From assembly GCA_013361075.1 (NCBI GenBank), contig JABWAJ010000002.1, positions 1 to 36,648 on the forward strand: 36,648 nt of DNA. The letters run 5' to 3'. This stretch comes from Saprospiraceae bacterium. Its GTDB lineage: Bacteria; Bacteroidota; Bacteroidia; Chitinophagales; Saprospiraceae. Shown here in pieces: positions 1-12,896 of this stretch (within the stretch, counting starts at the first letter, position 1; each line of letters begins with the position of its first letter). The notes under the pieces are model-generated. The model saw nothing but the letters and a program-made list of their open reading frames with translations, was not told where the DNA came from and made no database searches. Made by a program: the position numbers and the translations under genes.

Positions 1-1205
1 GCCTGTTGAAGTTCCTGATTGACAAAATCAGACGGGAGCCGGTCAGCCTGAAGGGAACACTGAATGATCGCGATATCCGGAACGGCACCAAGGAAGCCGT
101 CAATACGCTTACTATTTATTTTGAAAAAGAGCATTCGGAAGCACCCCGGCAAAAAGGAAGTTCGGAATCAGACGAAGCAAATATAGAAACAGGCGTGGAG
201 CTGACCTGGTATGGGTCTTTGACCAAATCCGGATTTGAACCAGACGAAATTACAGAAGCCAGCGCGTTTACAGATTTTGATAACATCATCTCTGCGATTG
301 ACAAACAACTCAAACGGGAAGAGCCTTCCAGCTTGCCTGTCCTCGTTTATTACCGTTGCGACTATGCAACCGATACGCCTGCCGCCAATGGGGAAATGAT
401 TAGTACGGAGGCTTTTAATGCCTATGATCATGCTTTATCCACCCGTTCTTTTGATTTCAGGCAGTTTTCCGAATGGTACAAATGGCGGGAAGATTTAGCA
501 AGGGATACAAAAAACGGACGGGATCGGCTCCGGGAAATTACTGAACAAGCAGTTTGTACGCTGTTGAGCGACAAAAAAAATAAATTTACTCTACTAAGAA
601 CTAAGGCATTGACAACGGGTATAGGTTACGAATTAACCGTTAGCAAAAATGGAGATCCCCTAAGTGTCAATCAATTTTCATCCGGTGAAAGAATGCTCTT
701 CGCCTTAGTCGCCGACCTCGCACGGCGCTTAGCGCTTGCCAACCCCGGAGTAGAAAAGCCACTCGAAGGTAACGGCATTGTCCTTATAGACGAAATAGAC
801 CTGCACTTGCACCCGGGTAAGCAGCAGGAGGTATTGCCTAAATTATTGGAAATTTTTCCGAATGTTCAATTTGTGGTGACAACGCATAGTCCGGTGGCCA
901 TCAACAACCTCGACCCTGAAAAGTCGAGTGTCTACATGCTGAATGATACTTCCACGGTGCAGTTGGAGCATTTTGCCGGGCGTAATATTGCCGAATTGAT
1001 GTACGAATATTATGGCATAAAATCCAGGCCGGAAGGTGTGCAGAAAGATATTGACGAACTATTTTCACTTATTGAAAGTGAAGATCCCAAACAAATCAAA
1101 CAGGCCAAAACAATGCTCAATCGCCTGAAAAAACGGCTTGGAGAAGAAGATAGCGCCGTAATGGATGCGGCAAATTCTATAGAACTATTAGAAGAGATAT
1201 TATGA
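1..1205 (+). CDS. AAA family ATPase, PtuA-like (Septu or retron-associated), 5'-truncated by the window edge
   Basis: The frame is open to the left edge, and the listed start is a TTG at 6. ABC-type signature FSSGERMLFALVADLARR, Walker B IVLIDEIDLHLHP, and H-loop VVTTHSP. The Walker A region is outside the window. Overlaps the HNH gene by ATGA. Confidence 0.8.
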   Translation, partial: LLKFLIDKIRREPVSLKGTLNDRDIRNGTKEAVNTLTIYFEKEHSEAPRQKGSSESDEANIETGVELTWYGSLTKSGFEPDEITEASAFTDFDNIISAIDKQLKREEPSSLPVLVYYRCDYATDTPAANGEMISTEAFNAYDHALSTRSFDFRQFSEWYKWREDLARDTKNGRDRLREITEQAVCTLLSDKKNKFTLLRTKALTTGIGYELTVSKNGDPLSVNQFSSGERMLFALVADLARRLALANPGVEKPLEGNGIVLIDEIDLHLHPGKQQEVLPKLLEIFPNVQFVVTTHSPVAINNLDPEKSSVYMLNDTSTVQLEHFAGRNIAELMYEYYGIKSRPEGVQKDIDELFSLIESEDPKQIKQAKTMLNRLKKRLGEEDSAVMDAANSIELLEEIL

Positions 1206-1939
1206 TTTTTATCAAGAAAAATCCGGAACCGCCAGGGCTAAAGCAGTATAAATCAGATATAAAGCACCTCGGCAGAACACCTTTATGGGAACAATTTTCA
1301 GGCGAAAACAGTGACAGGACATACGAGTCAGCATTTGAAGAACTTAGAATCTCACTTGTTAAAGAACAACGATCTGTTTGTTGTTATTGCCAACAGAAAA
1401 TTGCCTTCAAATCTGCTGAAACAGGGAAGTTGCTCATGAAAACTGAGCATTTTTTGCCTAAAAAGGGAAAACATGCCGTACCGGACAAGCAACTTGATTA
1501 TGGCAATTTGCTGGCAGTTTGCTTTGGAAACAGTGATACAGAACAGGAAAAGCATTGCGATTCCCATAAACTCGGCAATATTCTTCAGGCTATCCCAAAT
1601 CCATCAGAAGGAAAACAAAAGGATTTCAGGCCTTTTCTCAAGTATAAAGTTCAAATAAACCAACAAGAAGTGCTGGTGCTGCCAATGAGAAACGACGAAC
1701 GGCTGGAGGATGACATTAATAAGGTACTAAATCTGAACGAACAATCATTGCGTTCAAAAAGGTTTAGCGCATGGGAATCTGTATCGAGACTAATCAAAAA
1801 AAAAGATGGTACCTTTAAAGTCCAACGGATCAGGGAACTTTTGGAAATTTATACGCCTGCCGAGCAAAAAGAATATATGCCCTTCTGTGATTTTATTACT
1901 TCGTGGCTAAGGGAACATTTGAGAGAGATCGAAGGATAA
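1202..1939 (+). CDS. HNH endonuclease-like protein, PtuB / TIGR02646-like
   Basis: CCYCQQKI...KTEHFLPK...YGNLLAVC...KHCDSHKLGN matches the HNH/zinc-finger pattern of TIGR02646-type proteins. ATGA overlap with the upstream ATPase. Confidence 0.75.
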   Translation: MIFIKKNPEPPGLKQYKSDIKHLGRTPLWEQFSGENSDRTYESAFEELRISLVKEQRSVCCYCQQKIAFKSAETGKLLMKTEHFLPKKGKHAVPDKQLDYGNLLAVCFGNSDTEQEKHCDSHKLGNILQAIPNPSEGKQKDFRPFLKYKVQINQQEVLVLPMRNDERLEDDINKVLNLNEQSLRSKRFSAWESVSRLIKKKDGTFKVQRIRELLEIYTPAEQKEYMPFCDFITSWLREHLREIEG

Positions 1940-7760: not shown

Positions 7761-7886
7761 AGGGGCAAAATGCAAAAGACAAGGGGCAAAAACCAAAATG
7801 GTATAATTGTCAACTATGGCAATTTACATAATTATTGACTTTTGCCCCTTGCCAACTTGCCTTTTGCCAATTTGCATCTTATACCA
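7761..7886. repeat. Intergenic repeat element with 15-nt units and an imperfect inverted organisation
   Basis: Right part GCCCCTTGCCAACTT (7844-7858) and GCCTTTTGCCAATTT (7859-7873). Left part AGGGGCAAAATGCAAAAGACAAGGGGCAAAA (7761-7791) in opposite sense. TGGTATAA (7799-7806) and TTATACCA (7879-7886) are an 8-bp inverted pair. Confidence 0.75.
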
Positions 7887-10695: not shown

Positions 10696-10780
10696 GATGC
10701 AGTATTACCAATTGCGGTGCAAAAGTAAGGAAAAACCCGGCAATTCGAATTTGAAATGCTGCGGGGGGTTACCTTTGGGG

Positions 10781-10853
10781 AAGTTGTCAAGGGGCAAGTT
10801 GTCAAGGGGCAAGTTGTCAAGGGGCAAGTTGGCAAAGGGGCAAGTTGGCAAAT
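10781..10853. repeat. 15-nt tandem repeat array (AAGTTGTCAAGGGGC)
   Basis: Three identical copies (10781-10795, 10796-10810, 10811-10825), a 16-nt variant (10826-10841) and a partial copy (10842-10853). Confidence 0.95.
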
Positions 10854-11667: not shown

Positions 11668-12618
11668 TTAAACCAGGCCCTGTTCCTGTAAAATACTGGC
11701 GACCTCCTCGTTACTAATCCCTGTAATGGCCGCTATTGTCGCCAAATCAAGTCCCAGACGATGGCTGTTTACAACAACGGAAATGGTTTTTTCTTTTTGA
11801 CCTTCTGTTCTGCCTTCTGCTTTTCCTTCGGCCTTTCCTTCTGCTTTTCCTTCAGCCTTTCCTTCTGCCTTTCCTTCAGCTTTCCCTTCAGCTTTAGCCG
11901 TCTCCAGAACTCCATAAGAAATCGCTAACTCCTTTTGGTGGGCATCGTACAGCGTTTTGGCACTTGCATCCATATTGTCGTAATTTAATAGTTGAGCAAC
12001 CTTGTCTAAACCCGGTGCACTGTAATGCTCCGGCAGGCTGTTGTTTTTTAGATAATAGATCCACTCATCCAGTGAGTCTTTGGCCACATCATTGAATTTA
12101 TTGACTTTAATGATGTAGTATTCGGGATAAACCTCATAGGCCGAAGCAATGCCGAATAATTCCTTTTGCAGGGCATTCACCTGCAAAGTGTCATTGGTGT
12201 GAATGCCTTTAAACTCGGTCATTCCATGGTACACATAGTCATTCCCCTGGCCCAGATCAAAATAGACAATATTGATGGAATATACCTTGCGTACCTGATC
12301 ATAAGTATAACCCTGGCTCATGTAATCGGTAATAATTTTGCTGGCACCGAATAACATTCGCTGAAAGTAATCATGCTCACTATTGTATTGCAATTCAATC
12401 AAAATGAGTTCTTTGTGTTCGTTTTCACAAAGAATATCCACTTTGTTGATCTTGTCATCTGCCTGGTCGCTGTTTCCCTCCGATTCGGGAATGTTCACAA
12501 TTTTGATGGGTTTGCATAACAACACCGTCAAAAAACCTTCAAGCACATCATAGTTAGCTTTTTGTCGGAGCAACTTTTTGATGGCCCAATCGAAGCTCAC
12601 AAGGGGGCGCGCTTTCAT
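11668..12618 (-). CDS. Rpn family recombination-promoting nuclease / PD-(D/E)XK nuclease family transposase
   Basis: FDWAIKKLLRQKANYDVLEGFLTVLL...KVDILCENEHKELILIELQYNSEHDYFQRMLFGASKIITDYM; C-terminal (KAEG)n repeat. Confidence 0.9.
   Translation of the reverse strand: MKARPLVSFDWAIKKLLRQKANYDVLEGFLTVLLCKPIKIVNIPESEGNSDQADDKINKVDILCENEHKELILIELQYNSEHDYFQRMLFGASKIITDYMSQGYTYDQVRKVYSINIVYFDLGQGNDYVYHGMTEFKGIHTNDTLQVNALQKELFGIASAYEVYPEYYIIKVNKFNDVAKDSLDEWIYYLKNNSLPEHYSAPGLDKVAQLLNYDNMDASAKTLYDAHQKELAISYGVLETAKAEGKAEGKAEGKAEGKAEGKAEGKAEGRTEGQKEKTISVVVNSHRLGLDLATIAAITGISNEEVASILQEQGLV
11801..11896 (-). repeat. 12-bp in-frame tandem array (8 units) encoding (K/R)(A/T)EG repeats
   Basis: Plus-strand units: ccttctgttctg, ccttctgctttt, ccttcggccttt, ccttctgctttt, ccttcagccttt, ccttctgccttt, ccttcagctttc, ccttcagcttta. 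Confidence 0.93.
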
Positions 12619-12896
12619 CCGTTTTTTTACAAAAATACAGTGTTCAGGGCATTATTGCAACTGCCGGGCCACAACAATCCGCTACGTAGTCTGTATTCGT
12701 TTTCCTGTCGTTAATTGCGTGAACCTGGGTGAAGAAGTAGTGAGTAATTTTGGCTTACTTCCAGTTTTTTGAATGGATATTGGCCGTGCAATGCTTACAA
12801 ACCCGATCAGCCTGGGCAATACTACCCGCCCTGATTTTCGTTATCTGGAATCTATTGGCTTTCTTTGCAACACGATTCATCCTAAATAGTTTTTTC

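Follow-up and report, generated by a model that had tools for sequence, protein, structure and literature searches.

We conclude that a nuclease gene of the Rpn family in a Saprospiraceae bacterium (assembly GCA_013361075.1) very probably carries a second start site, indicated by sequence evidence, from which its C-terminal tail would be made as a separate protein. By analogy with the Rpn proteins of Escherichia coli, this separate tail is most likely an antitoxin that restrains the nuclease. The full reading, that a single frame specifies two proteins, the DNase RpnL and a short RpnS that begins at Met216 and inhibits RpnL, is one that we regard as likely. The gene lies in a stretch of 36,648 nucleotides of contig JABWAJ010000002.1 (the window; Table 1). 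The first-pass annotation had pointed to a (KAEG)n stretch in this gene and to an in-frame ATG at 11973 before the repeats, which would give a 101-residue C-terminal product; repeats, ATG, and ORF were found exactly as quoted. The internal start that it proposed is strongly supported by the start context, the conservation of Met in a clade, selection on synonymous codons, the position at a domain boundary, and free-standing copies of the tail.

Table 1. Coordinates of the Rpn gene and its parts in the window
Feature	Position	Strand	Remarks
Full-length Rpn nuclease gene (RpnL)	11668..12618	minus	316 aa, PDDEXK_2 (PF12784)
Nuclease domain, residues 1-210	11989..12618	minus	structure model; D61...E75-x-Q77 intact
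Internal start codon ATG (Met216)	11971..11973	minus	start context; Met conserved in 23/24 clade rows; standalone copies open with this codon
A-rich stretch, start-site context of internal ATG	11974..11993	minus	A at -13 (11986) comes from TTA, the codon of Leu211
Predicted RpnS ORF	11668..11973	minus	306 nt, 101 aa, MDASAKTLYDAHQKELAISYGVLETAKAEG...
Four-residue repeats, KAEG x7 + RTEG	11800..11895	minus	residues 242-273; helix 218-263 and up to residue 273
C-terminal three-helix domain (RpnS core), residues 270-312	11683..11811	minus	structure model, 7TH0 match
Bacteroidota-type -7 box TATTTTTG of full-length gene	12630..12637	minus	GTTG 20 nt upstream; motif match only

An intact Rpn nuclease with an RpnS-like tail

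The assignment of the gene to the Rpn nucleases is borne out by a whole-protein match to PF12784 (PDDEXK_2; E 3.6e-23) and by a match to TIGR01784 (Rpn family) at 75.7 bits, for which the cut-off is 52.1 (E 5.1e-21). With a PD-(D/E)XK domain and intact catalytic residues, the protein is a member of the Rpn (COG5464/TIGR01784) nucleases, and D61, E75, and Q77 are almost invariant across 60 relatives. It does not match PF04754 (Transposase_31), the E. coli-type Rpn family. PADLOC assigned the Rpn protein to no defence family and, over eight proteins of the window, returned one marginal match only, to LmuB (E 0.00086). Promoters of Bacteroidota have the -7 consensus TTTG/TAnnTTTG. When this motif was sought with at most one mismatch near the internal ATG, none was found close upstream, the nearest being 434 nt away.

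In the predicted structure of the full-length protein (pLDDT 82.5), the nuclease domain extends to about residue 210 and is followed by helices at residues 218-263, 270-287, 292-299, and 303-312. Between helix 204-210 and helix 218-263 there is a gap, at the boundary of the nuclease domain and the repeat helix, and Met216 lies within it. Foldseek returned weak matches only for the full-length model, the top ones being mostly PD-(D/E)XK nucleases. When the 101-residue product was modelled by itself, the repeats were predicted poorly (pLDDT 65 overall); the C-terminal domain alone was predicted well. The C-terminal part of this product is homologous to E. coli RpnS: hhalign aligned the tail with RpnS at 96.4% (E 1.3e-9), and Foldseek placed the C-terminal domain on E. 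coli RpnA-S (7TH0) with an rmsd of 1.4 over 38 columns, 37% identity, and a probability of 0.92, at an E-value of only 0.7.

Four-residue repeats are present in the first RpnS helix, and length in the clade of close relatives changes largely in four-residue steps; the repeat region of a paralog in the same genome (L002) is 12 residues (three units) shorter. All nucleotide differences between the seven KAEG units are synonymous, which suggests that the unit sequence has been kept by selection and is not the result of recent expansion alone. It is conceivable, if quite unlikely, that the start and the short protein are real in relatives and that the gene or the nuclease of this species is inactive. 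Such a view draws on the decayed copies in the source genome (two stop-bearing Rpn fragments on contig C419) and on the stop carried by some relatives' standalone copies (L243), but the window gene has an intact frame, retains D61, E75, and Q77, and has repeat units that vary only synonymously, and the frame of paralog L002 is intact too. The source genome has at least three intact Rpn members, counting L002 and L003. Decayed or contig-end fragments of the same gene were seen at G000:C419:7544-7730 and G000:C204:5295-5387 of the source genome.

The internal ATG has the start context of its genome

Met216 is the sole ATG, GTG, or TTG within codons 179-291. To score its surroundings, we built a start model from about 393 kb of the source genome, with 93 unambiguous gene starts set against 1,309 internal in-frame ATGs; the score is a log-odds over the upstream 20 nt and separates true starts from internal ATGs with an AUC of 0.90. 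The true starts are A-enriched at -14 to -10 and their early codons are A-rich, and no G-rich peak of a Shine-Dalgarno (SD) signal was seen over the 93 starts. Nor was an SD sequence found before the ATG at 11973. The context upstream of Met216 scores 5.3 bits, above 99.5% of the 1,309 internal ATGs and 74% of true starts, and outscores the start codon of the Rpn gene itself; the equivalent Met of paralog L002 lies at the 99.2nd percentile. Although a lone internal Met would be unremarkable, a context at the 99.5th percentile argues against chance.

The A-enrichment of the source genome's starts and of Met216 resembles that of SD-independent initiation in Flavobacterium johnsoniae, where it occurs at -14 to -11 and an A at -12/-13 is a positive determinant (PMC6847099). 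There the signal is known for gene starts, whereas the Met216 start lies inside a gene. As for mRNA folding, most of the gene is more structured than the start region, but the region is only weakly less structured than synonymous shuffles (mean 0.67), and because this last difference is weak, folding was kept out of the main evidence. Another ATG, out of frame at 11915, opens a 48-residue basic peptide; its upstream score is good, but it was weaker overall and was set aside.

Met216 is conserved in one clade and its surroundings are under synonymous selection

Relatives were gathered as 110 distinct sequences, later 156. A tree of the nuclease domain gave a 24-row Bacteroidota clade (support 91) with Met at column 216 in all rows but one; the next Met columns of this clade, 88 and 237, have Met in 13/24 and 10/24. 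Across all 110 rows, column 216 holds Leu in 57, Met in 43, and Cys in 9. As this column is hydrophobic and lies at the start of a helix, Met216 could be partly structural, and to part start-site selection from protein constraint we tested synonymous choice alone, taking the expectation from each gene's own Leu codons.

The wobble base of Leu211 occupies -13, the most informative position of the start model. This codon is A-ending in 18/22 of the clade versus 7.0 expected (p=5e-7), with both TTA and CTA occurring, and the bias is absent in the rest of the family (18/84 A-ending versus 23.2 expected). In an enlarged set of one sequence per 75% identity cluster (n=24), none of the 241 columns is more A-enriched than codon 211 (19/23 versus 7.6 expected, p=5.5e-7), and columns 217, 218, 219, and 221 (+5, +8, +11, and +17) are among the top ten as well. 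Four-fold codon identity averages 0.27 in this set, so synonymous sites are near saturation. A combined start-footprint statistic ranked codon 216 first of 266 positions, at 7.24 versus a largest permutation value of 4.54 (0/300). The association also held in sequences added after the first result, where Leu211 is A-ending in 11/12 with Met216 versus 6/32 without (p=1.6e-5); Bacteroidota that lack Met216 show no A-bias at codon 211 (9/34 versus 7.8 expected).

A phylogenetic independent-pairs test had 5 contrasts only and did not reach significance; with no more than about 8 changes of Met216 over the tree, its power is low. When all 43 Met216 sequences were scanned, non-Bacteroidota included, the signal was diluted, as the Met216 sequences outside the clade do not share it. 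Leu column 147 has a weaker raw association with Met216 (p=8e-5), and in control scans single columns elsewhere reach p about 5e-5. Away from known starts, A-ending codons are enriched at column 204 in Bacteroidota without Met216 (p about 5e-5), and they are enriched in the Met216 clade at column 280, where there is no known start (p about 7e-5). An alternative start at Met214, considered for the relatives with that residue, gave no synonymous signal in only 8 sequences and was dropped.

These results bear on the view that there is no internal initiation at all, with Met216 kept for structure and its A-rich context arising incidentally from the codons of a helix cap (Asn, Asp, Tyr, and Lys) and from AT-rich codon use. 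The residues encoded around Met216 are indeed AT-rich, and column 216 is always hydrophobic. However, the start-footprint test used within-gene synonymous choice only (z=7.2), relatives with Leu216 lack the A-bias, and standalone tail genes (see below) begin at the Met216-equivalent codon, so that we consider this view very unlikely.

Still more improbable, to the point of being nearly dismissible, is another internal start near the E. coli position. The sequence AAAAGGAG at window positions 11929-11936 (minus) stands six nt before ATT (Ile233), where E. coli rpnA has its SD sequence, and the spacing of AAAAGGAG-TTAGCG-ATT equals that of AAGGAG-AGTTTA-ATG in rpnA; some relatives have an ATG at column 237. 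ATT, however, is a very poor start codon, the starts of the source genome have no SD signal, Met at column 237 is confined to the minority of the clade given above, and neither 233 nor 237 has a synonymous start signature. Since ATT follows AAAAGGAG and SD sequences are not used by this organism, we regard AAAAGGAG as a coincidence.

Free-standing copies of the tail begin at the same codon

A profile of the Met216-to-end product (A3) was searched against 14 genomes for standalone tails. Short ORFs lie directly downstream of full-length Rpn genes at three loci, L171 (G147:C76) and L174 and L217 (two loci of G189); each is 2-12 nt past the stop of its parent and has an ATG that corresponds to Met216, with a further ATG two codons before it in L217. 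After this ATG, L171, L174, and L217 share 58/60, 55/60, and 56/60 nucleotides with their parents, respectively, versus 13/30, 12/30, and 5/30 before it. Homology to the parent thus starts at the ATG, and the copies begin at a start codon. The same beginning is found in a solitary tail copy (L225, G242:C144) and in one with a premature stop (G242:C220); the copy in G147:C110 begins 8 codons farther upstream and has the Met replaced.

The profile search found no standalone tail copy in the source genome itself. Candidates in G052:C83, G052:C191, and G054:C4 were set aside as cut by contig ends, and a tail in G229:C107 was left uncounted, its ATG being at base 1 of the contig. Also found was a second class of free-standing, short RpnS-like ORFs, which start with M(S/T)TYDxxxxxG (L226, L228, L230, L239, and L240, in G256, G189, and G147). 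In these ORFs, as in E. coli, the ATG precedes the repeats by only some 8 residues, and several of them lie directly 3' of more distant Rpn genes.

Comparison with E. coli Rpn and a proposed mechanism

The closest known system is the intragenic toxin-antitoxin of E. coli (RpnA/B/C/D/E and RpnP2; Zhong et al. 2023, PMC10327210), with which the window protein has in common a PD-(D/E)XK nuclease with a D...E-x-Q pattern (read also in the E. coli RpnA sequence), a C-terminal repeat helix with a three-helix domain, four-residue repeats of varying number, and an in-frame internal start that would yield the tail alone. E. coli RpnS binds RpnL in a 2:2 complex and blocks cleavage, with partners matched by repeat number (PMC10327210). 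Standalone downstream copies have a counterpart as well, ypaA beside rpnE in E. coli (PMC10327210), although here they occur in the related genomes G147 and G189.

The two systems differ in several ways. The window protein belongs to PF12784 and E. coli RpnA, B, C, and E to PF04754. The internal start signal is A-rich and SD-less in the window gene and AAGGAG in E. coli, where RpnS of rpnA, B, and E begins at Met244 behind an SD sequence. The distance from start to repeats is 26 residues, outside the published 8-20 of E. coli Rpn, and the earlier start adds a conserved helical segment, giving a predicted product of 101 residues versus 49-60. Internal transcripts are reported in E. coli (PMC10327210); in the window gene, no promoter-like match within one mismatch was found close upstream of the internal start. 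We conclude that the window gene very probably represents the known arrangement, with its start shifted and its start signal specific to the phylum.

The start-site and standalone-gene evidence would suit any C-terminal subunit that is made separately, and the Met216 start may thus be real with the short protein serving the nuclease as a structural component or an activator, in the manner of Cas11d with Cas10d (a precedent cited in PMC10327210), instead of as an inhibitor. We think this unlikely, although it is the most credible of the alternatives, given that the homologous RpnS of E. coli acts as an inhibitor of RpnL in genetic tests and RpnA-S prevents cleavage in vitro (PMC10327210), and that the C-terminal domains are homologous. 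Since the architecture is that of E. coli Rpn, inhibition of RpnL by RpnS is the best explanation. One mRNA with two starts would then give RpnL, a PD-(D/E)XK DNase of 316 residues read from the full-length start, and RpnS, a long KAEG-repeat helix with a three-helix domain, made by a second ribosome entry at Met216 that is marked by the A-rich signal of the phylum in place of an SD sequence. Through the repeat helix, RpnS would pair with the same C-terminal region of RpnL and keep the nuclease inactive, as homology with E. coli suggests; repeat number would set which RpnL and RpnS partners match, and some infection cue would free RpnL. By the same analogy, we infer production of the short protein in this organism, toxicity of RpnL and its inhibition by RpnS, and a role of the pair in phage defence.

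Members of the family annotated "Rpn family recombination-promoting nuclease/putative transposase" (TIGR01784/PF12784, PDDEXK_2) match the window protein over its whole length, but in Bacteroidota most of them have Leu at 216 and no synonymous start signature, in contrast to the Met216 of the window clade. The start may be a labile, clade-specific trait, fixed in one Bacteroidota lineage at a domain-boundary Met by an SD-independent, synonymously selected signal and more than once duplicated as an rpnS gene of its own, while most Bacteroidota Rpn lost it or never had it and are restrained otherwise or not at all. We judge the chances of this scenario to be about even.

Other features of the window

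Between two divergent pseudouridine synthase genes, at 10777-10852, a 15-bp unit, GGGCAAGTTGTCAAG, is repeated in tandem about five times, and a sixth related copy is at 7848-7862 (chance expectation, 0.13 matches). At the edge of the window (6-1939, plus strand), a gene for an AAA_21 ATPase (with an AbiEii-toxin-like Pfam description) has a four-base overlap with a 245-residue ORF that has no Pfam match; the two possibly form a defence-like gene pair.

Significance

Experimental evidence of intragenic antitoxins comes from E. coli and from one C. difficile gene. On the basis of sequence, the present analysis carries the arrangement into a phylum in which SD signals are not used. As a measurable trace of the internal start is seen at synonymous sites, and free-standing copies have their boundary exactly at this start, such starts should be findable in other genomes without ribosome profiling. 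The start signal also points to telling mutations, a synonymous change of TTA to CTG at codon 211 and a conservative M216L, by which the putative second start of this nuclease gene may be probed.
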